IMG/VR virus record: IMGVR_UViG_3300024308_000023
Span: 1-64,000 of that record
DNA: 64,000 nt
DNA from: a virus
Direction: 5' to 3' (one strand)
Under the pieces are notes generated by a model, which saw only the letters and a program-made list of their open reading frames with translations, made no database searches and was not told where the DNA came from. Numbering within the stretch: the first letter of the stretch is position 1; the number at the start of each line of letters is the position of its first letter. Positions 39,700 through 63,336 of the stretch are shown here, one piece after another. A program made the translations under genes and the position numbers.

Positions 39700-39728
39700 T
39701 TGACTTGAGACCCTAAAGTTGATATAAT
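39700..39728 (+). promoter_or_regulatory. Promoter of a 1.86-kb non-coding transcription unit
   Basis: -35 TTGACT, -10 TATAAT, 17-bp spacer, GAGACATCAAGA leader, but no GGAG and no gene; next terminator at 41561. Confidence 0.8.
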
Positions 39729-39736
39729 GAGACATC

Positions 39737-40315
39737 AAGACGCGAATACGAAGTTAGGCCGGTATCCACAGGGTGCCTTGCCGAGCGTCTTATAGGTTAG
39801 CACAATATTATACGCTATTAAATCCGAGAAAGTTATGTGCATCGGAGCCTACATCAATTGGTGGCACTGAGAAGGTGTTAATGTCGTGGGACGCGAAACA
39901 GCCGATATTCATATGAGTTATTAACCACCAGACCCTGCACTGGCTCATATGTCTTAGTAATTGAGGGTTAGCTTATCGGGCTGATGGCGACATGCTGGCT
40001 AGAAGCGGATTGCAAGAGAAACCTCCAAGGAGGCGTACGTGATAAACCAGTGTCTTGATTATGATTCTGCGAGTCAATCCGGATTTAAACCGGAATAAAG
40101 GTAGGTTGGATTCCTACATCAAGAAAAGTGTGGCAACAGGCACTTAACATTTGGTGTTGCTTAGTTGTGAGTGGTAATTAACTCTCCCGAAGACTGATAT
40201 TAATGGGATGAAACCCAGGGTCTGTGCCTCTCGGATATAGAATGAGGAAGTCTAGCTGCCAGGGTTGGTTACGTTAAGTAAGAGGGTTCGAGTCCCCGTT
40301 AAGCTAGCAATGTGG
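39737..40315 (+). ncRNA. Large structured RNA, first domain
   Basis: No credible plus-strand ORF. Visible helices: AAGACGC (39737)/GCGTCTT (39785), TCCGA/TCGGA (about 39822-39846), CATATGAG (39910)/CTCATATG (39943) with CCACCA in its loop able to pair with TGGTGG upstream (pseudoknot), GCAACA/TGTTGC (40133-40158), TGGG/CCCA with flanking AGAC/GTCT (40190-40222), and CTAGCT (40252)/AGCTAG (40302) closing a stem that holds GGGTTCGAGTCCC, a T-loop mimic. Size, phage setting and nearby tRNAs recall the GOLLD and ROOL classes, but I cannot confirm membership. Confidence 0.6.
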
Positions 40316-40346
40316 TTTGCAGATGGCACGTTAAACGCAATCTGTC

Positions 40347-40376
40347 AAGAGAACGGGACTCTTGCGAAGAACCCGT
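40347..40376 (+). ncRNA. H-type pseudoknot
   Basis: CAAGAG pairs with CTCTTG, and ACGGG in that loop pairs with CCCGT seven nt downstream. Compact and perfect, part of the same transcript. Confidence 0.65.
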
Positions 40377-40455
40377 ACATGCAGCACAGTCGCTAAGCGT
40401 CTGTATCTGTTCGATCGAGTAGTAGCGCTTAAATGCTCGGTCAACCCTTCGCGAG

Positions 40456-40525
40456 GGACGCAGGTAGTGTAACGGCAGCACCCCGGCCTATGATCGGGAG
40501 TCTGGGTTCGAGTCCCAGCCTGCAA
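40456..40525 (+). tRNA. tRNA-like element, degenerate (anticodon loop CCTATGA)
   Basis: GTGT/GCAC D-stem, CCCGG/TCGGG anticodon stem and CTGGG-TTCGAGT-CCCAG T-arm are good. But the acceptor pairs only five bases (GCAGG/CCTGC), CCA is not encoded, and position 33 would be C rather than U. It may be a decayed tRNA or a tRNA mimic inside the larger RNA. The nominal anticodon is TAT (Ile). Confidence 0.4.
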
Positions 40526-40530
40526 ACGCG

Positions 40531-40643
40531 CATATTATATAGATTCAGTAGTTTAACCGGGCGTTAAAAACGACTCCTCGAACAGCTCCGAGAATTAGAG
40601 TATTTCGCTGGCAATGCTGACCAGCCTGACTCTATATAATATG
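40531..40643 (+). ncRNA. 113-nt RNA closed by a 13-bp perfect stem
   Basis: CATATTATATAGA (40531-40543) is perfectly complementary to TCTATATAATATG (40631-40643), and TCAG/CTGA extends it after one mismatch. Inside are CTCG/CGAG and GCTGG/CCAGC hairpins, giving a multi-branch junction. It lies between two tRNA-like elements. Confidence 0.65.
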
Positions 40644-40648
40644 ATTTT

Positions 40649-40797
40649 GGTGCGACTATCGCTTGACTATCAGTAACCTAGAACGGGAAGGCCTTTCTGT
40701 CTAGAAGTGATGTTAGGAGAGTAAAAGGTTTGTAGATAGCATGGAAGTTCTATAGGCTTCATATCATGTCGGGTTCGATTCCCTAACGCACCACCAG
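40649..40797 (+). tRNA. tRNA-like RNA with a long insertion in the D-arm region
   Basis: GGTGCGA at the 5' end pairs (six of seven) with ACGCACC, followed by discriminator A and CCA. GTCGGG-TTCGATT-CCCTA forms an imperfect T-arm. An anticodon-like arm GAAGT-TCTATAG-GCTTC lies before it. Between acceptor and this arm are about 75 extra nt with CTATC/GATAG, AACC/GGTT and a GGAAGG/CCTTTC hairpin. The total of 149 nt is twice a normal tRNA. It may be a tRNA with an intervening sequence or a tRNA-like end of a longer RNA. Confidence 0.4.
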
Positions 40798-41594
40798 AGT
40801 TCCGAGAAGTGGAAAGTAAGATAGAGGCTCCTTAATCCAGACGCGGGTTGATCTCCGCTACAAGCTGGGCTAAATCGTGGAGCAAACTTGTTACTACTGC
40901 GATTGCTGGCATCCTAGGAAAAATTGCCTGTGACCAGTCAAAGAATTCCCCGGACTAACCTCCGGCTCGGTTTAACAGTTCAGGAGATCAACGACCCGAC
41001 GATGAAAGAGGTTTCCGACGTACGCGGTGTAATCGAAGACGACCTCAACTCCTGATTCATATTGGGGTAGTTAACCCTGATAGGCGGCTCTAGCCTAAAG
41101 AGAGACGGTCTTTGTTGTGTAGAACAAAGCGGATGTGCGTGGTCGAGACACTTCACGTACCATTAAGGATTGCCGAACAAGTTCATGTAAGAGACTAACG
41201 GTAAATCTAGGCTTAGCGGCTTAGTAGGATTTTGTGGTCCGGTTCGCGGCCGCAGACGACAATTAGACGGGAACCGCGGGTCAAGGCCGGCTATGCGGTT
41301 GGTGAGGAGCAGGTGGTGAGCGACCTCACGTTCAGTTTAGGCATGGTGCAGCCTTGAGATAGCTGAGATTACGTCATAAGTCTCCTTGGTCCTCAAAATG
41401 TGTCTACTTTGGCAGAAGTTAAAACTGCCTTATACCGGAGAACCGGCCCGTCCTCGCGGGAAATATCTGAGGAGGTAACAAGCGGAGTAATTAACCCACC
41501 TAAAGACCTGAAGCGCAGAAGTTCAGGCCGGATCAACCCGTAATACGAATTTGCCGGGGCATGGGCAGCAACTTTCGGGTTGCTGCCCATTTTG
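40798..41594 (+). ncRNA. Large structured RNA, 3' domain
   Basis: No convincing plus-strand ORF. Many local hairpins: TTGCCG/CGGTAA (41169), CGGTTC/GAACCG (41240-41276), GTGAGG/CCTCAC (41302-41328), GAGATTA/TAAGTCTC (41365-41384), GGCAG/CTGCC (41411), CCGG-AGAA-CCGG (41435), CCCG...CGGG (41448) and CCTGAA/TTCAGG (41507-41526). Ends in a strong terminator. Not recognised as RNase P, 6S or 23S-like. Confidence 0.55.
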
Positions 41595-41596
41595 CT
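41561..41596 (+). terminator. Strong intrinsic terminator
   Basis: ATGGGCAGCAAC pairs with GTTGCTGCCCAT over a 6-nt loop, then TTTTGCT. Confidence 0.85.
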
Positions 41597-41638
41597 GTGC
41601 GCCGACCACCGCATTTCAAGCACTTCCAAAGTTACGTG

Positions 41639-41667
41639 TTGACTCACATGTTTAGTTGGCGTATAAT
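41639..41667 (+). promoter_or_regulatory. Early promoter with conserved leader
   Basis: -35 TTGACT, -10 TATAAT, 17-bp spacer, then GAGTCATCAATAGGAGA. Confidence 0.8.
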
Positions 41668-46963: not shown

Positions 46964-47180
46964 GAAGCCCTGTAAGCGTCCTGGTAAGGGCGTAACGAAA
47001 GAAATGCTGCGCGATGCTCATAAGGTGAAGATGGAGGCTAAGAAGATTCTTAACGCTCATAATCGAGACCTTTATCGTACTAATGAGTATATCATGGCTA
47101 ATCTGTCAGTGAATCATCCCAATTTCGGGGATACGCCTCAAGAAGACGAAAAGCGGAAGCGTTCGGAAAAAAGTTCTTGA
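46953..47180 (+). CDS. Hypothetical basic protein
   Basis: 75 residues, MIDKKPCKRPGKGVTKEMLR, Lys/Arg-rich. Overlaps the preceding gene; its stop overlaps the tmRNA promoter. Confidence 0.6.
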   Translation: MIDKKPCKRPGKGVTKEMLRDAHKVKMEAKKILNAHNRDLYRTNEYIMANLSVNHPNFGDTPQEDEKRKRSEKSS

Positions 47181-47205
47181 CTTGACGGCTCAAATTTAGT
47201 ATATT
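47177..47205 (+). promoter_or_regulatory. Promoter of the tmRNA gene
   Basis: -35 TTGACT, -10 TATATT, 17-bp spacer. Confidence 0.75.
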
Positions 47206-47221
47206 GAGACATAACGAGATT

Positions 47222-47338
47222 GATAAGTATATTGTTCTCTACCCTGCGTGGTAACATTATACTTATCTAACTAAATAGCCGCTTGAAGCGACTTAATAGC
47301 AGCTGAAGACGTGGGTTTGACTCCCACCTGCTCCACCA
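47222..47338 (+). ncRNA. ssrA: Two-piece tmRNA, acceptor piece
   Basis: A 10-bp stem GATAAGTATA/TATACTTATC opens the piece. The T-arm GTGGG-TTTGACT-CCCAC is followed by CTGCTCC, discriminator A and CCA (47336-47338). CTGCTCC pairs with GGGGCAG, the first bases of the coding piece at 47514, including one G-U. The order acceptor piece first, coding piece second is the permuted form found in alphaproteobacteria. Confidence 0.85.
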
Positions 47339-47513
47339 TTATTCTAGTATAGGGACTCCCTGCTTTTACCGAGGCACTACTCTCCCGACAAGACGAATGA
47401 CCATTCTGCGGTAACAGAAAAACAAAGCGCTCGATTGCAAAACGAGAGATTCCTATGGTCTAAGGACGTTGGCATGGGTCAGTGTAGCTTAGAAGTTTTA
47501 CTAGAATATTGAT
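47339..47513 (+). other. tmRNA intervening segment, probably removed
   Basis: TATTCTAGTA (47340) and TACTAGAATA (47499) are perfectly complementary and would bring the two pieces together. The 150 nt between hold small hairpins and a Cys-anticodon-like loop (TTGCAAA) without T-arm. Confidence 0.7.
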
Positions 47514-47693
47514 GGGGCAGAACTGAGATCGATTCGGCGTGAAAAAAGCACGTTAGGCTATAGTCTGGCTAAACTTAAACTGGCCACAAAAAGTAAACGC
47601 AAACGACAATGACGTTGTCGCTTTCGACGAGATTCGTCTCGCCGCATAAGTGACCGGGGTCTGGCCCACCTTGTTACCCAACGGGCCACAGAA
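47514..47693 (+). ncRNA. ssrA: Two-piece tmRNA, coding piece with tag
   Basis: Begins GGGGCAG and has the D-loop-like GATTCGGCG. Upstream of the tag is AAGTAAACGCAAACGAC, the usual resume context. The tag frame starts at GCA 47599 and ends at TAA 47647-47649: ANDNDVVAFDEIRLAA, with the classic ANDN start and LAA end that targets ClpXP. A hairpin TGGCCC/GGGCCA (47662, 47683) closes the 3' end. tmRNA frees ribosomes stalled on broken mRNA and tags their products. Confidence 0.9.
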
Positions 47694-49689: not shown

Positions 49690-50706
49690 ATGAAATATGA
49701 TCTGCTAGTTTTTATCGGGCGCTTTCAGCCACTTCACTTGGGCCACCAGGAAGTGATTGAACGCGCTCTTTCTTTGTCCGAACGAGTTCTGGTTCTGGTA
49801 GGCGGAGAGGGGAAGGCGCGTTCCACGCGCAATCCGTTCACTTATCTCGAACGTCGGAATATGATTAAGACGATCTACCCGAATGTTATCGTTCGTGGGG
49901 TCAAGGACCACACTTACAACGATACCGCTTGGATTGAGGAAGTCCAGAAGAATATCAAGGAAGTTGCACTTGGAGACAAGTGGACTGGTCTTGGGATGAA
50001 GGATCTCAAGGTAGGTCTGATAGGTCACGCCAAGGACAACACTAGCTACTACCTGAAACTGTTCCCCGAGCTCCTCAGCGAGGACGTTCCTGTTGCTAGT
50101 CCGCTTAATGCGACTGCAATCCGTGAAATGTTCTTCGCGGAAGATCACCAGGCCTTTGAACTGTCCACGATTATGCATCGTGATACTGTTCGTTGGATTA
50201 AGAACGAGTTCATGGGAACTCCTGAAGCTGATCGCCTTCGTAGCGAGTTTGAATACATCAAGAACTACAAGAAACTGTGGGGTAATGGTGTCTTTTTGAC
50301 GGCTGATGCGCTGGTCCAGGTGGGTGGTAACATCCTGCTTATTACTCGTGGTAAGGAGTATGGTCAGGGCTTGCTGGCACTGCCTGGCGGTTTCGTAAAC
50401 CCTGACGAGACTTGCTTTGATGCTGCTTTCCGTGAGCTGAAGGAAGAGACTCGACTGAAGGTGCCCCTGCCAGTACTTAAGGGCAGCGTGCATGGTAACT
50501 TCTTCGCGGATCATCCTAATCGCTCGGAGCGCGGCCGTATCGCGTCTCTGGTGCAGCATATCAAGCTGCGCAATGAGACTAGCCTGCCAGAAGTTCGAGG
50601 TTCGGATGATGCCGATCATGCTGATTGGTACCCGATCTCTGATCTGCGTGAAGAGCTGTTCTTCGAGGACCACTATCACATCATTAAGAATATGTTGGGA
50701 CTGTAA
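49690..50706 (+). CDS. nadM: Bifunctional NMN adenylyltransferase / Nudix hydrolase
   Basis: 338 residues. The N-terminal NMNAT domain has FIGRFQPLHLGHQEVIERAL, the (H/T)xGH-type site, and RSTRNPFTYLERRNMI; PLNATAIREMF closes it. The C-terminal Nudix domain has LPGGFVNPDETCFDAAFREL then KEETRLKV, the Nudix box. It would join NMN to ATP giving NAD+, and hydrolyse a nucleotide such as ADP-ribose. With NAMPT (52606) it forms a two-step NAD+ route from nicotinamide. GC-richer codons than its neighbours suggest separate acquisition. Confidence 0.9.
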   Translation: MKYDLLVFIGRFQPLHLGHQEVIERALSLSERVLVLVGGEGKARSTRNPFTYLERRNMIKTIYPNVIVRGVKDHTYNDTAWIEEVQKNIKEVALGDKWTGLGMKDLKVGLIGHAKDNTSYYLKLFPELLSEDVPVASPLNATAIREMFFAEDHQAFELSTIMHRDTVRWIKNEFMGTPEADRLRSEFEYIKNYKKLWGNGVFLTADALVQVGGNILLITRGKEYGQGLLALPGGFVNPDETCFDAAFRELKEETRLKVPLPVLKGSVHGNFFADHPNRSERGRIASLVQHIKLRNETSLPEVRGSDDADHADWYPISDLREELFFEDHYHIIKNMLGL

Positions 50707-52605: not shown

Positions 52606-53985
52606 ATGAACAAGTTTAATTTCGTACTAAATACCGATTCATATAAATTGAGCCACTTTCTGGGCTATCCCCAGGGCGCTACTCACGTATACAGTTACGC
52701 TGAGAGCCGTGGTGGTAAATACCCCGCAACTGTTTTCACTGGTATTCAGAAGTTCGTCCAGGAGCTGGCCGAAGTTCGTGTAACTCGTGCGGATGTCATT
52801 GAAGCGGCTGCTTTTGCTGCTGCTCATGGCGAACCTTTCAACGAGGAAGATTGGCTGATTATCGTCTTTGAACACAATGGGCGCATCCCCGTGCGCATCA
52901 AGGCGGTACCGGAAGGTACGGTTGTGCCTACCCGCAATGTTCTCGTAACGGTTGAGAACACTGATCCACGTATGCCGTGGCTGACCAGCTACATCGAAAC
53001 CGCTCTGCTTCGTGCTGTGTGGTATCCGGTAACTGTTGCCACTCGCGTCCACGAAATGAAGAAGAAGATCAAGCCTTACTATGACCGTACCAGTGATCGA
53101 GGTGATATGGCTTTCGCTCTTCTCGATTTCAGTGCTCGCGGCGTCTCTAGCCGTGAAACTTCCGAGGTCGGTGGCATGGCTCACCTTCTTAGCTTTGTTG
53201 GCTCTGACAATATTCCAGCTGTGCTTGCCGCACGTCGCTATTATGATGAGCCGATGGCAGCTTACTCTGTAGCAGCCACGGAACACAGTGTCATGACCGG
53301 CTTCGGTGAAGAGAACGAGTTCGCTTCGTTCGAATATCTGATTGACAACATGATGCCTGAAAACTGTATCCTGAGTGTCGTTAGTGATACCTGGAACGTT
53401 TATCGTGCTTGCGAATATTGGGTTAAGCTGGCGGACAAGATCCGTGCCAAGAACGGTACTCTCGTTGTTCGTCCGGATAGCGGTGACATGCGCGAAGTGT
53501 TTGCTAAGATCCTGCCGATCCTCGCAGAAGGTTTCGGCTACGATATCAACAGTAAAGGCTTCAAGGTTCTGAAGAATGTCAAAATTCTCCAGGGTGACGG
53601 TATAAATGAGGACACTGTAGTTACTCCGTTTCAGATTGCTGAGGAGCTGGGCATCAGTGCTGATAGCATTATGACTGGTTCGGGTGGTGGCCTGATGCAG
53701 GCTAACATTGACAGAGATACCTGCAAGTTTGCCTTCAAGGCGAGCAATATCACGATTGACGGTAAGGATATTGGCATTGCCAAGAACCCTATCACCGATC
53801 CTGGTAAGATGAGCAAGAAAGGCCGTATGAAGCTCATTAAGACTGAATGGGGCGAATTCAATACCACTAGCGCTACGGCAGCTATGTCGTATCATGATCA
53901 ATTGAGGACTGTATACGAAAATGGCAAGGTCTCCAACATGGAAACTTTCGGAACCATCCGAGAAAGGCTTTCCACCTATCTGTAA
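52606..53985 (+). CDS. nampt: Nicotinamide phosphoribosyltransferase
   Basis: 459 residues. VLNTDSYKLSHFLGYPQGAT, LLDFSARGVSSRETSEVGGM, AATEHSVMTGFGEENEF, VSDTWNVYRACEYW, VVRPDSGD and the ILQGDGIN...GSGGGLMQ block match NAMPT throughout. It makes NMN from nicotinamide and PRPP. NMN would then become NAD+ through the phage NMN adenylyltransferase. GC-richer than neighbours. Confidence 0.95.
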   Translation: MNKFNFVLNTDSYKLSHFLGYPQGATHVYSYAESRGGKYPATVFTGIQKFVQELAEVRVTRADVIEAAAFAAAHGEPFNEEDWLIIVFEHNGRIPVRIKAVPEGTVVPTRNVLVTVENTDPRMPWLTSYIETALLRAVWYPVTVATRVHEMKKKIKPYYDRTSDRGDMAFALLDFSARGVSSRETSEVGGMAHLLSFVGSDNIPAVLAARRYYDEPMAAYSVAATEHSVMTGFGEENEFASFEYLIDNMMPENCILSVVSDTWNVYRACEYWVKLADKIRAKNGTLVVRPDSGDMREVFAKILPILAEGFGYDINSKGFKVLKNVKILQGDGINEDTVVTPFQIAEELGISADSIMTGSGGGLMQANIDRDTCKFAFKASNITIDGKDIGIAKNPITDPGKMSKKGRMKLIKTEWGEFNTTSATAAMSYHDQLRTVYENGKVSNMETFGTIRERLSTYL

Positions 53986-58766: not shown

Positions 58767-58843
58767 GCACGACGAGATAGCTTGGTGAAATCGCCCTCCT
58801 TACAAGTGGGAAATGATAGGTTCGAATCCTATGTCGTGTACCA
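58767..58843 (+). tRNA. tRNA-Val (TAC)
   Basis: Acceptor GCACGAC/GTCGTGT, loop CTTACAA, T-arm with TTCGAAT, CCA encoded. Confidence 0.85.
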
Positions 58844-59196
58844 GTTTTGCTAGAAGGTGGGAACAGCTTCCCCACACACCAAGTACGGGCTTGGTAAAGT
58901 AACTAACATGGGTCGTTACCTGATGAGTGAAGAGATCGTACTTTGCAATACGTCTAGCAAAAGCCAGGGTGCGCTCCACCCTACCGGCCCCAAGCATAGG
59001 ATGATCGTGCTTGTAAAATATTTGATCTATTCTGGGAGCGACACACGGCCCAGATGGTGGAACCGTCTCCGGACGGCCTCAACAGCCAAAGTACCTCCTT
59101 GGCTGTATAAATATGGAACGGGAGTTATCGCCCGCGGATGGTTAAGTTTCCGGTGCATGTACTTCAAACCGGCTAGTTTCGTGCGAATGCACACAT
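58844..59196 (+). ncRNA. Structured non-coding stretch between tRNAs
   Basis: TTTTGCTAGA (58845) pairs with TCTAGCAAAA (58953), closing about 118 nt with AAAGTA/TACTTT and GTAAC/GTTAC inside. Then AGGGTG/CACCCT, AAGCA/TGCTT and CAGCCAA/TTGGCTG hairpins. No ORF is convincing. Unknown. Confidence 0.55.
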
Positions 59197-59271
59197 GCTC
59201 ACGTCGTCTAATGGCTAAGGCTGCCGCCTGATTAGCGGCCTATCGGGGTTCGAGTCCCTGCGTGAGTACCA
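59197..59271 (+). tRNA. tRNA-Ile (GAT)
   Basis: Acceptor GCTCACG/CGTGAGT, stem GCCGC/GCGGC with loop CTGATTA, CCA encoded. Confidence 0.9.
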
Positions 59272-59289
59272 GTTTATAGGGGGATAAAT

Positions 59290-59466
59290 ATGAGTATTGT
59301 TGGCGTTATTTGGCTTGTTTTGATTATTCTCAAGATCGTAGGCGTCATTGCCACCAGTTGGCTGTTGCTCATCTTCTGGCCTATTATTCTATTCCTAATT
59401 CTAGCGTTGATTTTCCTCGTTTTCGGGGTGAGCATCGCAGGTGTTAGTGCTTTCGTAAGTCGCTAA
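59290..59466 (+). CDS. Small membrane protein between tRNAs
   Basis: 58 residues, almost all hydrophobic: VIWLVLIILKIVGVIATSWL and LILALIFLVFGVSIAGVSAF. It lies 18 nt after one tRNA and 6 nt before the next. Confidence 0.65.
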   Translation: MSIVGVIWLVLIILKIVGVIATSWLLLIFWPIILFLILALIFLVFGVSIAGVSAFVSR

Positions 59467-59472
59467 CACCAT

Positions 59473-59549
59473 TCCCCGTTGCGCTATCGGGTAAGGCGGC
59501 TAGGTTTTGGCCCTAGTGAGTGTGGGTTCGAGTCCTACGCGGGGATCCA
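59473..59549 (+). tRNA. tRNA-Gln (TTG)
   Basis: Acceptor TCCCCGT/GCGGGGA, stem CTAGG/CCTAG with loop TTTTGGC, CCA encoded. Confidence 0.9.
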
Positions 59550-59575
59550 TTTTTCAACAACGGAAAGGTAAGTTA

Positions 59576-59779
59576 ATGTTCAATCGTAGTCTTGATAATA
59601 TTCTTGGAGCCTTCAGCAAGGTTCAGCGTGATCTCGAAACTTATATCGACGCTGAGAATGCCAAGAACGTGAAAGACCAAGAAACCATTGTCAAGCTCAG
59701 TGCTGGTGTAGATGCCCGCGCTAGCGAGATTGAGCGCGCTGCCCGCGTTCGCGATAAGGTCATCGCAATTACAGCTTAA
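59576..59779 (+). CDS. Small helical protein between tRNAs
   Basis: 67 residues, MFNRSLDNILGAFSKVQRDL, a charged helix. GGAAAGG upstream. One nt separates its stop from the next tRNA. Confidence 0.65.
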   Translation: MFNRSLDNILGAFSKVQRDLETYIDAENAKNVKDQETIVKLSAGVDARASEIERAARVRDKVIAITA

Positions 59780-59780
59780 C

Positions 59781-59873
59781 GGAAGGTTATCCTGGGCGGC
59801 CCCAGGCCTAGTCTTGAAAACTAGTGGACTCGTAGCGATACGGTTGGGGATCGACACCACCAGCCTTCCTCCA
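59781..59873 (+). tRNA. tRNA-Ser (TGA)
   Basis: Acceptor GGAAGGT/GCCTTCC, stem CTAGT/ACTAG with loop CTTGAAA, long variable arm, CCA encoded. T-stem has one mismatch. Confidence 0.85.
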
Positions 59874-59879
59874 TTTCAT

Positions 59880-59950
59880 GCCGACACCTCTGGCGAGGAC
59901 AACGGCTTCGTACGTCGTTTAGTTGGGCTCGAACCCCAATGTCGGCTCCA
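59880..59950 (+). tRNA. tRNA-Thr (CGT)
   Basis: Acceptor GCCGACA/TGTCGGC, stem ACGGC/GTCGT with loop TTCGTAC, T-arm TTGGG/CCCAA, CCA encoded. The D-loop is very short. Confidence 0.8.
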
Positions 59951-59965
59951 TATAAGGATTATCAT

Positions 59966-60211
59966 ATGTTTAATAAGTTACTCACAGGACTGTTTTTACT
60001 AGGGTTGGCTGCTGGCAGTCCCGCCAATGCAGACCCGCGCGTAATTGTTACCGCAGGGCCTAATGCAGTAATACTAGATAGTGAATATCATAAAACTGTG
60101 TATAACAGTGAACCAAACTGTAATAGTGATAAGCCTTTTCTAATTAAAGACAAGAAGTTGAATCGCATGATCTGCGTAGATCGAGCGACCTACGAAAAGT
60201 CTGAAGGCTAA
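59966..60211 (+). CDS. Secreted small protein
   Basis: 81 residues. Signal peptide LLTGLFLLGLAAGSPANA, cut before DPRVIV, leaving about 58 residues with two Cys (NCNSDKPF and MICVDR) that may form a disulfide. Probably periplasmic. Confidence 0.65.
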   Translation: MFNKLLTGLFLLGLAAGSPANADPRVIVTAGPNAVILDSEYHKTVYNSEPNCNSDKPFLIKDKKLNRMICVDRATYEKSEG

Positions 60212-60214
60212 TGT

Positions 60215-60285
60215 GGCAGTCCCTCAGGGAGGGGTTCGGGCTCATATCCTGGACTAGCTAGGATCGTTACCTAGGTCTGCTACCA
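60215..60285 (+). tRNA. tRNA-Met (CAT)
   Basis: T-arm CTAGG-ATCGTTA-CCTAG, anticodon loop CTCATAT, CCA encoded; acceptor GGCAGTC/GTCTGCT has one mismatch. Starts 3 nt after the preceding stop. Could be a modified tRNA-Ile2. Confidence 0.75.
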
Positions 60286-60293
60286 TCTATTAT

Positions 60294-60328
60294 AGCCGAG
60301 GTTCTCGACGGAGCCTCGGCTATTTTTA
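60294..60328 (+). terminator. Intrinsic terminator
   Basis: AGCCGAGG pairs with CCTCGGCT, then ATTTTTATA. Confidence 0.85.
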
Positions 60329-60387
60329 TAGCTTTCGGGGATGAATCTCTGTAATTAAAACGGATTCAACCTCTTAAAATTTAGTTC

Positions 60388-60416
60388 TTGACTTTGACCG
60401 CCAACCTTGTTATAAT
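60388..60416 (+). promoter_or_regulatory. Early promoter with conserved leader
   Basis: -35 TTGACT, -10 TATAAT, 17-bp spacer, CATCAAGAGCGGAGA leader. Confidence 0.8.
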
Positions 60417-60440
60417 TGGGCATCAAGAGCGGAGACTACC

Positions 60441-60614
60441 ATGTTGTGTCACAAATGCGGCGGAAGTGGTAACTTATTCAAGCCTAAGCGTGGCTCGAAA
60501 TTCAAAGACAAATTTCGCATCTGCTGTGCCTGTCACGGAACAGGTAATCTAAAAGCAGATCACGCCATCGTTGTGGCGGTTAAACAGCAACGAGAGATAA
60601 TGGACCGATCTTAA
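60441..60614 (+). CDS. DnaJ-type zinc-finger mini-protein
   Basis: 57 residues. CHKCGGSGN and CCACHGTGN are two CxxCxGxG knuckles of DnaJ type, about 24 residues apart, enough for one zinc centre. Its last codons overlap the start of a tRNA. Confidence 0.75.
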   Translation: MLCHKCGGSGNLFKPKRGSKFKDKFRICCACHGTGNLKADHAIVVAVKQQREIMDRS

Positions 60615-60678
60615 TAATAGGCTAATACCGGGACTCTTAATCCTTGGGATCGAGGTTCAAATCCTCGTCGGTTCACCA
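60602..60678 (+). tRNA. tRNA-Lys (CTT), overlaps upstream ORF
   Basis: Acceptor GGACCGA/TCGGTTC, loop CTCTTAA, T-arm CGAGG/CCTCG, CCA encoded. The first 13 nt are the end of the zinc-finger gene including its stop. Confidence 0.8.
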
Positions 60679-60694
60679 ATTACTGAAATAGTTC

Positions 60695-60723
60695 TTGACT
60701 TTCACTACTGCCTTTGTTATAAT
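60695..60723 (+). promoter_or_regulatory. Early promoter with conserved leader
   Basis: -35 TTGACT, -10 TATAAT, 17-bp spacer, GAGGCATCAAGAGCGGAGA leader. Confidence 0.8.
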
Positions 60724-60747
60724 GAGGCATCAAGAGCGGAGATAGCA

Positions 60748-60942
60748 ATGAACGATCATACTTGGGAAGAGATTGAAGCTAATGAAGACTTAGCTGAACG
60801 TCTTGTTCATGAGTTGTCTAATGAACTTAGCACTTATGAAGAAGAGTCCGAAGAGTGGTATTCGGTTCATTATGAACTTTGTGACGCAGAAAATGAGCTG
60901 ACCTATTGGCAGCTTCAAAAGGAATATTTCACGGACGTGTAG
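60748..60942 (+). CDS. Hypothetical acidic protein
   Basis: 64 residues, MNDHTWEEIEANEDLAERLV, strongly acidic helical. Its last 10 nt are the start of the next tRNA. Confidence 0.65.
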   Translation: MNDHTWEEIEANEDLAERLVHELSNELSTYEEESEEWYSVHYELCDAENELTYWQLQKEYFTDV

Positions 60943-61008
60943 CTCAGTTGGCAGAGCGCGGGACTCTTAATCCTTAGGTCGTGGGTTCGAACCCCACCTC
61001 GTCTACCA
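60933..61008 (+). tRNA. tRNA-Lys (CTT), overlaps upstream ORF
   Basis: Acceptor GGACGTG/CTCGTCT, D-arm GCTC...GAGC, loop CTCTTAA, T-arm GTGGG/CCCAC, CCA encoded. The upstream stop TAG is tRNA bases 8-10. Confidence 0.9.
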
Positions 61009-61021
61009 TTTTAGGTGCTTT

Positions 61022-61180
61022 ATGTGGCAAAGGTTGAAAAGCTGGTTCAGCCCTGAGTTTGAGCCGCTGAAAATTTCAAATTTCAAACTATTCAACTCAC
61101 TAGGGGAGGTGATATTTGAAATGGCGGTCGACTATAAAAATCCTGAATACAGTAAGATTGTAATTAATAAGCTGGATTAA
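61022..61180 (+). CDS. Hypothetical small protein
   Basis: 52 residues, MWQRLKSWFSPEFEPLKISN. AGGTG upstream of ATG 61022. Lies between two tRNAs. Confidence 0.55.
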   Translation: MWQRLKSWFSPEFEPLKISNFKLFNSLGEVIFEMAVDYKNPEYSKIVINKLD

Positions 61181-61214
61181 GTTCCAGCTATAGCCGAGGT
61201 TGAACAGTCATCAT

Positions 61215-61291
61215 GGACCGGTAGTTCAATAGGCGGAACGGCGGACTTTTAATCCGCGCGTATGTGGGTTCGAACCCCACCCGGTCTACCA
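61215..61291 (+). tRNA. tRNA-Lys (TTT)
   Basis: Acceptor GGACCGG/CCGGTCT, stem GCGGA/TCCGC with loop CTTTTAA, CCA encoded. Confidence 0.9.
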
Positions 61292-61307
61292 GTTAGAAAA
61301 ATAGTTC

Positions 61308-61336
61308 TTGACATTGAAACTGACTTGAATTATAAT
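61308..61336 (+). promoter_or_regulatory. Early promoter
   Basis: -35 TTGACA, -10 TATAAT, 17-bp spacer; GAGGAG leader. Confidence 0.8.
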
Positions 61337-61362
61337 GAGTTTATCAAGAGAGGAGTCGGGAC

Positions 61363-61437
61363 TTGAAGACCCGCCCCAATGCAGAAGTTTACGAGCTTAT
61401 TGCAACTCTTGATAACGTTGTGATGAACATGCGTTAG
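61363..61437 (+). CDS. 24-codon ORF (leader peptide?)
   Basis: TTG start with GAGGAG upstream; KTRPNAEVYELIATLDNVVM. It may be a real micro-protein or only a leader before the RNA that follows. Confidence 0.35.
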   Translation: MKTRPNAEVYELIATLDNVVMNMR

Positions 61438-61791
61438 GTTCATCCGGTCGCTCTACGAATAGATGCGGGGCTAGTCATTCCGTTGACATGGGACTAGCGG
61501 GCTAGAGAGTGGACGGCACTCTAGCCACTTGAGATTGGGTGATGGTCCTAAAAGCGCTATTCATCTGCCCGGACTGATTGTATTCGGGACTAAATTGAGC
61601 CGGTATCCTGCTCTGCCAATAAAGCTGTGCTACTACTCGGTAGAGCGGCGAGGCATCCGGACCGCCCCAGCCATTAGGATGAGAACCTAATGTGCCGCCT
61701 TCTCGGGGGAGCTGCTTACCAGTGCAGCAGGAAACACAGAGCACGCATCACTCAGTGAGGTGTTATAGGTGAACTGGTCCAGTTTTTTCAT
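61438..61791 (+). ncRNA. Structured non-coding stretch before tRNA-Pro
   Basis: Hairpins GCTAGTC/GACTAGC (61471-61500), GGCTAGA/TCTAGCC (61500-61528), GCTCTGCC/GGTAGAGC (61610-61650), CATTAGG/CCTAATG (61673-61693) and GCTGC/GCAGC (61710-61728). No ORF convinces. Unknown function. Confidence 0.55.
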
Positions 61792-61867
61792 CTGGGAGTA
61801 GCGCAAGTGGTAGCGCACCTGCTTTGGGAGCAGGGGGTTGCAGGTTCAAGTCCTGTCTCCTAGACCA
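61792..61867 (+). tRNA. tRNA-Pro (TGG)
   Basis: Acceptor CTGGGAG/CTCCTAG, stem CCTGC/GCAGG with loop TTTGGGA, CCA encoded. Confidence 0.9.
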
Positions 61868-61967
61868 GTTTTACAGCTACGGCTGCTGAGCCTCCCCGCT
61901 CGCTCGATAAGCGATACTGATGCTAGCAATCAGTCGAGGAAACGAGTTAAAGAGGGACAAGTTTAAT

Positions 61968-62042
61968 GCAGGCGAGCATAAGGTATGCGGTCGGTCTTCC
62001 AAACCGTACATAGAGCGGGTTCGATTCCCGTCGCCCGCTCCA
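61968..62042 (+). tRNA. tRNA-Gly (TCC)
   Basis: Acceptor GCAGGCG/CGCCCGC (one mismatch), loop CTTCCAA, T-arm with TTCGATT, CCA encoded. Confidence 0.85.
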
Positions 62043-62080
62043 GTTCCGAGGAGTACTTCCTCATCACATTAGGAGACAAA

Positions 62081-62563
62081 ATGAAGTTTATTGCACTTGC
62101 AGCGGCTGCTGCCCTCGCCACTACCCCTGCCATTGCGCAGACCAATGCTGCCTTCACTGGTGTTCGTGCCGAAGTAACTGCCGGATATAATGACATTCAG
62201 AACAGCCCAGACGCTAACGACGTGGTTTACGGAGCCGCAGTCGGTGTCGATGCTCCGCTCGGCGACCGAGTGACTATCGGTGTCGAAGCCAATAGCTCGA
62301 ATTTCTTCGAAAAGGAGCGCATGATTGGTGCTAGCGCACGTCTTGGTTACGCTTTCACTCCACGCACTCTTGGCTATGTCCATGCTGGTTACGATAACTA
62401 TCGCGACGTTTTCAGTCGTAAGCTTGATGGCTTCAAGGTAGGTGCCGGTGTTGAGCGCAAGATTAGCGACGTTACCTATATCAAGGCTCAGTACAATTAC
62501 TCTGAGTTTGACCGTAATACCGGTAGCCATGCCCTGCTTGCAGGCGTAGGTTTCCGCTTCTAA
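62081..62563 (+). CDS. Outer-membrane beta-barrel protein
   Basis: 160 residues. Signal peptide FIALAAAAALATTPAIAQ, then about eight alternating strands with turns (VRAEVTAGYND, VVYGAAVGVDA, VTIGVEANSSNFF, ASARLGYAFT, LGYVHAGYDNYR, FKVGAGVERK, TYIKAQYNYSEF) and the terminal strand LLAGVGFRF ending in Phe, the BamA signal. Resembles OmpA-like or porin-like alphaproteobacterial proteins. May block reinfection or alter the host surface. Ends close to a tRNA. Confidence 0.8.
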   Translation: MKFIALAAAAALATTPAIAQTNAAFTGVRAEVTAGYNDIQNSPDANDVVYGAAVGVDAPLGDRVTIGVEANSSNFFEKERMIGASARLGYAFTPRTLGYVHAGYDNYRDVFSRKLDGFKVGAGVERKISDVTYIKAQYNYSEFDRNTGSHALLAGVGFRF

Positions 62564-62621
62564 TTTGATGGGCTCCTTTCGGGGTATAAAGATCCATGCT
62601 TGGGGGCGGCCGGATATACAT
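62564..62621 (+). other. Short spacer before tRNA
   Basis: No gene; a weak CCTTTCGGGG run after the barrel stop. Confidence 0.3.
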
Positions 62622-62697
62622 GCTCCAGTAGCCAAACGGCAGAGGCAATCGGCTAAGAACCGTAAATTTGTGAGTTCAAGTCTCACCTGGAGTACCA
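62622..62697 (+). tRNA. tRNA, anticodon uncertain (AAG by geometry)
   Basis: Acceptor GCTCCAG/CTGGAGT and T-arm GTGAG/CTCAC are perfect and CCA is encoded. The anticodon stem has only three good pairs around CTAAGAA, and no long variable arm is present as a bacterial Leu tRNA should have. Confidence 0.65.
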
Positions 62698-62906
62698 GTT
62701 TGGTTGGGCACAGTCCCGTATAAAGTGTTCCCTGAGGTTACAGGAGCCGACCTAGTAAACATGTAAGGTTACACGCGGGAGCTGCAAATCTACAGCTTGT
62801 CTGGCAACAGTCTGGAGAAGAGACGTTAACTACGCCCTTATATGTATAGATCCGTAGATCCCAGCTATGTGTAGCGAGCCGGCTTAGCCGGTACTGGGAG
62901 AGTTTC
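62698..62906 (+). other. Non-coding stretch between tRNAs
   Basis: No ORF. A GCCGG/CCGGC-type hairpin near 62880. Little else seen. Confidence 0.4.
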
Positions 62907-62992
62907 GGGGTTGTGGTGTAATGGTAGCCGCGCTGCGCTTAGAACGCAGTGGATGAAAGTCCGTGTGGGTTCGAGTCCCACCTTCCCCACCA
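62907..62992 (+). tRNA. tRNA-Leu (TAG)
   Basis: Stem CTGCG/CGCAG with loop CTTAGAA, variable arm GGA/TCC, T-arm GTGGG/CCCAC, CCA encoded; acceptor has two mismatches. Confidence 0.8.
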
Positions 62993-63008
62993 GTTTAGAA
63001 AGGTTATT

Positions 63009-63194
63009 ATGCGTATTAAAAGCATCCATCCTATTAGCTCAGTGATTGTACGAACCACCGAGAAGCCTTGGGGCGAGTATCAACGTTATAGCGCGGATAA
63101 TTGGCAATTGTTAATGGGTATGTCTTGGGAAGAAGTTGATGGTACGGAATTAGAGAAATTATATCAAGAGTATATAGCTGTACCGCATTGGTGA
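63009..63194 (+). CDS. Hypothetical small protein
   Basis: 61 residues, MRIKSIHPISSVIVRTTEKP. AAAGG upstream; between two tRNAs. Confidence 0.6.
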   Translation: MRIKSIHPISSVIVRTTEKPWGEYQRYSADNWQLLMGMSWEEVDGTELEKLYQEYIAVPHW

Positions 63195-63203
63195 TTTTAA
63201 TTG

Positions 63204-63232
63204 TTGACTTGAGAAGCTAAAACGGATATAAT
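63204..63232 (+). promoter_or_regulatory. Early promoter
   Basis: -35 TTGACT, -10 TATAAT, 17-bp spacer; reads into tRNA-Leu. Confidence 0.8.
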
Positions 63233-63253
63233 GGCTTCAACAAAGAGAGACAT

Positions 63254-63336
63254 GTCCACGTGGCGAAATGGTAAACGCAGGAGACTTAAAATCTCCCGGT
63301 TAATCCTTGTGGGTTCGAGTCCCACCGTGGATACCA
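63254..63336 (+). tRNA. tRNA-Leu (TAA)
   Basis: Acceptor GTCCACG/CGTGGAT, stem GGAGA/TCTCC with loop CTTAAAA, long variable region, CCA encoded. Confidence 0.9.

Follow-up and report, generated by a model that had tools for sequence, protein, structure and literature searches.

A permuted ssrA gene in the window

The window, i.e. the whole 64,000-nucleotide stretch of viral DNA analysed here, contains at positions 47177-47693 a circularly permuted, two-piece tmRNA gene (Table 1). From the sequence alone it had been proposed that this region holds a complete permuted ssrA gene with a removable spacer bracketed by an inverted repeat. All parts named in that proposal can be located in the sequence, and its identification of a phage-encoded two-piece tmRNA is upheld by a full-length match to the Rfam model RF04321 (tmRNA_permuted; 47275-47649, model positions 1-213 of 213, 85.6 bits against a cut-off of 47, E = 5.6e-15), the lack of any covariance-model hit being the outcome that had been named as speaking against it. 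The alphaproteobacterial model RF01849 (alpha_tmRNA), with which the check had been suggested, also aligns over its full length (47231-47690, model 1-355, E = 3.9e-10) but yields only 41.1 bits and stays below its cut-off of 50; the RNA is alpha-like but by score not assigned to the clade model RF01849. ARAGORN reported no tmRNA gene over the window, and misses by this program are common, as it calls a tmRNA in only 6 of 14 IMG/VR loci from records that pass RF04321.

Table 1. Parts of the permuted ssrA gene in the window and unannotated permuted tmRNA genes of named phages
Feature	Sequence	Position	Strand	Basis or remark
Candidate sigma-70-like promoter TTGACT-17-TATATT	window	47177..47205	+	10/12 consensus matches; consensus match alone
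Hairpin 5' of acceptor piece, 20-nt arms, 85% complementary	window	47217..47272	+	inverted repeat; also in predicted fold
Acceptor (3') piece	window	47231..47338	+	RF04321, RF01849; 5' end is the RF01849 match start, unmapped
Inter-piece helix, strand 1, ATAGCC	window	47275..47280	+	RF04321 alignment, sequence check
T arm GTGGG-TTTGACT-CCCAC	window	47311..47327	+	RF04321 alignment, sequence check
Acceptor stem 3' strand CTGCTCC + A73 + encoded CCA	window	47328..47338	+	RF04321, sequence check
Intervening segment (spacer), 175 nt	window	47339..47513	+	longest of 35 distinct phage spacers measured
Clamp helix, left arm, TATTCTAGTA	window	47340..47349	+	inverted-repeat search, register test, sequence check
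Clamp helix, right arm, TACTAGAATA	window	47499..47508	+	inverted-repeat search, register test, sequence check
Unpaired leader TGAT before G1	window	47510..47513	+	commonest leader among phage copies
Coding (5') piece	window	47514..47693	+	RF04321, RF01849; 3' end approximate
Acceptor stem 5' strand GGGGCAG	window	47514..47520	+	RF04321, sequence check
Inter-piece helix, strand 2, GGCTAT	window	47556..47561	+	RF04321 alignment, sequence check
Tag frame: resume codon GCA, peptide ANDNDVVAFDEIRLAA, stop TAA	window	47599..47649	+	sequence
3' hairpin TGGCCC...GGGCCA near coding-piece end, then CACAGAA	window	47662..47688	+	sequence, RF01849
Permuted tmRNA, Phaeobacter phage MD18	MT270409	21785-22073		unannotated; full-length
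Permuted tmRNA, Caulobacter phage CcrPW	MH588545	140753-141047		unannotated; full-length
Permuted tmRNA, Caulobacter phage CcrBL10	MH588544	101295-101613		unannotated; full-length
Permuted tmRNA, Brevundimonas phage Kabachok	ON529852	194435-194690		unannotated; full-length
Permuted tmRNA, Erythrobacter phage vB_EliS-L02	OL955261	75768-76055		unannotated; full-length
Permuted tmRNA, Mesorhizobium phage Cp1R7A-A1	MT188704	58735-59021		unannotated; full-length

The acceptor stem consists of 7 bp, including G3-U70, with its 3' strand lying upstream of its 5' strand; G3-U70 and A73-CCA are alanine identity elements of both tmRNA and tRNA-Ala. All six pairs of the inter-piece helix can form, while the second, 4-bp helix of RF04321 has mismatches. 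The tag frame is open and ends in LAA, a C-terminal end of the type that directs degradation by ClpXP, and the CACAGAA following the 3' hairpin agrees with the alpha consensus CAACAGAA. In piece order, acceptor stem, inter-piece helix, tag frame and CACAGAA-like 3' end the gene resembles chromosomal alphaproteobacterial tmRNA genes (RF01849, RF04321), from which it differs in that theirs have short spacers, mostly without the clamp helix described below. The T-loop UUUGACU was dropped as an oddity because T-loops differ widely within this class of RNA. Of 47 phage copies, 7 have a promoter-like site with at least 10 of 12 consensus matches, and of 47 bacterial copies 4 have one, versus about 3% in shuffles; a promoter common to all phage copies was accordingly rejected, and a promoter is claimed for the window's own site only.

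Permuted tmRNA genes in phages of Alphaproteobacteria

While the identity of the RNA thus stood, the accompanying view that a permuted copy is unusual on a phage did not. In 2014 a survey listed ssrA in ten phages (PMC4131195), an ssrA/tmRNA gene has been annotated in the Sphingobium phage Lacusarx since 2017 (PMC5648845), the 2022 paper on phage Melnitz counted 53 two-piece tmRNAs in phage genomes from 2021 data, mostly from marine or aquatic sources (PMC9004378), and the tmRNA database of 2025 contains 79 phage sequences (PMC11915505). A pattern search of IMG/VR with one conserved string around the resume codon returned 44 stretches, and in 41 of these 44 records the RF04321 cut-off is passed. 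It is likewise passed by all seven alphaproteobacterial phages searched whole, namely Phaeobacter phage MD18, Mesorhizobium phage Cp1R7A-A1, Erythrobacter phage vB_EliS-L02, the Caulobacter phages CcrPW and CcrBL10 and the Brevundimonas phages Bajun and Kabachok, but not by two Vibrio T5-like phages. Together with Lacusarx, the layout of whose ssrA gene was re-read here as permuted, eight named phages carry the gene, which is annotated in Bajun and Lacusarx only and unannotated in the other six (Table 1). Large alphaproteobacterial phages commonly carry a permuted tmRNA gene, which is under-annotated in them, and with model Caulobacter phages among the carriers its role becomes directly testable.

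In MD18 the permuted tmRNA adjoins a GOLLD RNA with a tRNA inside (positions 2055-2522 of our locus L065, 169.6 bits). A second, phage-like permuted tmRNA with the tag ANDNSPVAMAA lies in a bacterial assembly (L337, 9555-9813; G185:C5:288554-288812), next to genes for a terminase, a Tad2-like protein and three tRNAs, and belongs to a prophage or to a phage contig within that assembly.

A clamp helix around the discarded spacer

In the phage copies the two ends of the spacer pair in a fixed register, base k after the CCA with base 4 + k before G1. The resulting outer helix, here called the clamp, stacks past the acceptor stem with four bases on each side between the two helices, N73-CCA facing the leader. 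In the window the clamp comprises 10 bp (pairs 2-11). Pairs 2-10 formed in register in 31 of 200,000 shuffles of the spacer and in 2 of 9,115 segments of the window, and the bracket is not a product of chance.

For the comparison between phages and bacteria, spacers were picked by a script from acceptor and T-arm pairing alone, blind to their content. The bacterial side was drawn from 142 genomes of Alphaproteobacteria, 131 of which have the gene over the cut-off, and comprised 110 fetched copies plus further chromosomal hits; the phage side is a small set, partly drawn with one string, of 35 distinct spacers, 33 of them long enough for the clamp test. At least seven of eight clamp pairs are present in 31 of these 33 phage spacers versus 16 of 84 testable bacterial ones, whereas in any other register this holds for zero to two phage spacers, and for 0.85% of shuffles. 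The eight named phages, which had been found by other routes, all have the helix except Kabachok (six of eight pairs). Phage spacers are also longer (median 88 versus 34 nt in bacteria), and among spacers of at least 60 nt the clamp occurs in 29 of 30 from phages versus 3 of 13 from bacteria. With one copy retained per 80% identity group, which is the fairer contrast as to relatedness, it is found in 20 of 23 phage versus 4 of 11 testable bacterial copies (p = 0.005, Fisher's exact test). One copy, L316, is both among the three long clamped bacterial spacers and among these four, and because a terminase gene, a capsid-like gene and a Tad2-like gene adjoin it, it represents phage DNA. The leader TGAT, too, precedes G1 in 29 of 35 distinct phage spacers versus 10 of 121 bacterial ones. 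Nearly all phage copies, unlike most bacterial copies, clamp the middle segment that is discarded, and the clamp may therefore serve as a marker that separates phage copies from the majority of chromosomal ones. A jumbo virus record of 435,856 bases (IMGVR_UViG_3300034073_003340; L084/L166) holds a clamped permuted tmRNA as well, with a tag of the NDNDVV type.

The clamp is lacking in L019 and L043, which have spacers of 27 nt, and in L032 with a spacer of 12 nt, while only six of eight pairs form in L002 (75 nt) and Kabachok (36 nt). Since the L019/L043 group is clamp-free and the L032 spacer measures only 12 nt, the helix is not indispensable; and since the unclamped copies have just these 12- or 27-nt spacers, it is plausible that a longer insert needs a clamp. 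The clamp in phage permuted tmRNA seems to have been undescribed before: those passages of PMC11915505 that name the intervening sequence do not mention a spacer helix, older processing papers lying outside this comparison.

Conservation of the clamp and content of the spacer

Among 20 phage copies with mature parts less than 80% alike and spacers of at least 40 nt, each of pairs 2-9 forms in 19 or 20 of the 20, and between three and six kinds of base pair occur at each of these positions, so that the helix covaries across diverged phage tmRNAs. A close pair of copies is equally instructive: the mature parts of L018 and L031 are 99% alike, but their spacers measure 160 and 71 nt and are 38% alike, and both are fully clamped with different bases. 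Spacers thus change rapidly, yet the helix persists in them.

As to what the window spacer holds, several candidates were rejected. A nested tRNA was not found there by ARAGORN even at a lowered threshold, which gave only weak calls in some other phage spacers; nor does the window spacer contain an Rfam match that would indicate a known RNA or riboswitch, or a gene-like open frame, and its fold beyond the bracket is unremarkable (z-score -0.99). That the spacer functions as an RNA in its own right or as a small gene, with the helix as its own stem instead of a processing clamp, is nevertheless worth weighing, because no other spacer of the phage set is as long as that of the window and because a small reading frame with a ribosome-binding-like site is conserved in some phage spacers (the L010 family). 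We consider this reading unlikely, as the register of the helix is fixed to G1 and CCA, the inner part of the spacer is unrelated between phages, and the window spacer itself has neither a notable frame nor an Rfam match nor a notable fold.

The small frames just mentioned begin within the spacers of the IMG/VR copies L010, L011, L015, L023, L029, L030, L035, L038 and L044. They read, e.g., MFDRLTEFFIKLFNIQEKTTVRYLSG... in L011 and MRQWLLNLKLVV...YLSG... in L035, YLSG being common to diverged copies, and those of L010 and L011 extend into the coding piece. Such a frame is possibly a gene nested in the tmRNA.

The carrier phage and its likely host

The window is part of a virus record of 115,141 bases. 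Its terminase is nearest to those of T5-like Vibrio phages (47%), one of which is labelled Demerecviridae, and the record also encodes an A1-like DNA transfer protein (phrog_1745, E = 7.9e-145; about 40% to T5-like A1). With a T5-type terminase and an A1-like protein the carrier is, judged by these sequences, a T5-like phage related to the Demerecviridae, and the carriers of two-piece tmRNA now include this type of phage. No other T5-like carrier was found: no tmRNA was seen in the T5-like IMG/VR records retrieved with a terminase profile, most of which, however, are short fragments that may not extend over the region. Neither DNA relatives of the window in INPHARED nor close relatives spanning the gene in IMG/VR (by acceptor string, terminase or nicotinamide phosphoribosyltransferase) were found. 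As the nicotinamide phosphoribosyltransferase of the window is nearest to versions in Caulobacter, Brevundimonas and Phaeobacter phages, the host is likely an alphaproteobacterium. An assignment via a common tag was abandoned, the tag pattern that the window shares with Lacusarx and vB_EliS-L02 being unmatched in bacterial genomes.

The gene for this enzyme (52606-53985) and one for an NMN adenylyltransferase/Nudix protein (49690-50706) form an NAD salvage pair, which co-occurs in Caulobacter, Brevundimonas and Phaeobacter phages. Further downstream, nine clustered ARAGORN tRNAs and two weak Rfam tRNAs lie at 58767-63336, with an OMP beta-barrel gene (61985-62563) within the cluster. About 1.9 kb at 39700-41650 are without a gene-like frame on the + strand and contain a tRNA-Ile(tat) of weak score (34.1 bits) and a tRNA-Stop(tta) called by ARAGORN; large RNA families are unmatched there and the fold is unremarkable.

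Function and origin of the phage tmRNA

SmpB (PF01668) is absent from the record and from 17 other phage records, most of which have a tmRNA, while the same profile matches in 10 of 14 control genomes. The phage RNA, if working, must therefore use the SmpB of the host. In a phylogenetic tree the window copy joins the IMG/VR copies L005, L019 and L027 (support 99/99) on a long branch and with a placement flagged as unsure. The long branch and the RF01849 score under the cut-off mark the RNA as diverged. Its tag resembles that of the same group (ANDNDVAFALAA) as well as those of Lacusarx and vB_EliS-L02.

In our assessment the locus is very probably a working phage ssrA gene with a clamped precursor, whose product is processed, charged with alanine and used with host SmpB for ribosome rescue. 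The single transcript would fold such that the acceptor stem forms between its ends, in line with the clamp. Sitting exactly four bases out from G1 and opposite N73-CCA, the clamp would join the distant ends across the long insert and leave the cut sites single-stranded in a 4-by-4 internal loop. RNase P prefers substrates in which the leader is unpaired, the base at -1 is U and the RCCA end is free. With the clamp formed, four leader bases lie opposite NCCA, which suggests that the helix may serve the end processing of the precursor. Host tRNA-processing enzymes would then excise the spacer, and pairing in the acceptor stem and in the inter-piece helix would keep the two resulting pieces together. 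By analogy with known tmRNAs, the two-piece RNA would be charged by the host alanyl-tRNA synthetase (AlaRS) and bound by host SmpB, whereupon stalled ribosomes would be rescued by trans-translation with addition of the tag ANDNDVVAFDEIRLAA. The phage might benefit by keeping rescue going during infection; both gains considered in the original prediction, replacing host tmRNA or tagging host proteins, had already been proposed (PMC9004378), as had a gain from keeping ribosomes free.

An opposite role is conceivable, in which the RNA competes for SmpB or AlaRS and blocks trans-translation in the host: two papers describe a tmRNA of mycobacteriophage DS6A that is tRNA-like only, and molecules of this kind as inhibitors of tmRNA (PMC4131195; PMC11915505). 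But the window gene retains the whole tag frame, the resume context and the LAA end, although an inhibitor has no need of a tag, and a full-length model match is retained in 41 IMG/VR phage records, all of which makes inhibition very improbable. Decay of an acquired host ssrA copy, which the phage would carry as a mere passenger, could in turn account for the long branch and for a score of 85.6 bits versus mostly 111-166 bits for chromosomal copies, but it is scarcely credible given that the functional parts are all intact and that the phage copies, though falling into several groups, cluster in the tree (5 changes of label between phage and bacterial copies versus a mean of 21 after shuffling) and share a clamp and TGAT leader that are mostly absent in bacteria. 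Because of this clustering and these common features, the phage copies rather represent old, maintained phage lineages.

Beyond the working gene favoured here lies a broader proposition, on which the arguments for and against seem to us evenly balanced, namely that phage permuted tmRNAs form a distinct class of precursor, in which a fast-changing cassette is enclosed by a covarying clamp of fixed register that is a phage adaptation and mostly absent from chromosomes. If so, the clamp might provide for fast, host-independent end processing or allow the segment to carry cargo, and it offers a simple, testable rule for how the ends of a permuted precursor can be kept together around a long, fast-changing insert.

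Among known systems, the gene is similar to those of the OM43 phage Melnitz and of Melnitz-like marine phages (PMC9004378) in that a phage carries a permuted ssrA of alphaproteobacterial type, with a promoter of its own (in the window a candidate) close by; unlike the T5-like window phage, Melnitz is a myophage, and its ssrA has a predicted glutamine riboswitch, whereas no riboswitch was found with Rfam at the window gene. Lacusarx (KY629563, PMC5648845) and vB_EliS-L02 have clamped permuted tmRNAs with tags of the same pattern as that of the window (ANDNDVVTAEVRLAA and VNDNDVVVARDEVRLAA, respectively). In contrast to the window phage, they are not T5-like by terminase (tested for vB_EliS-L02), their spacers measure only 74 and 88 nt, and the window copy groups in the tree with the three IMG/VR copies named above instead.
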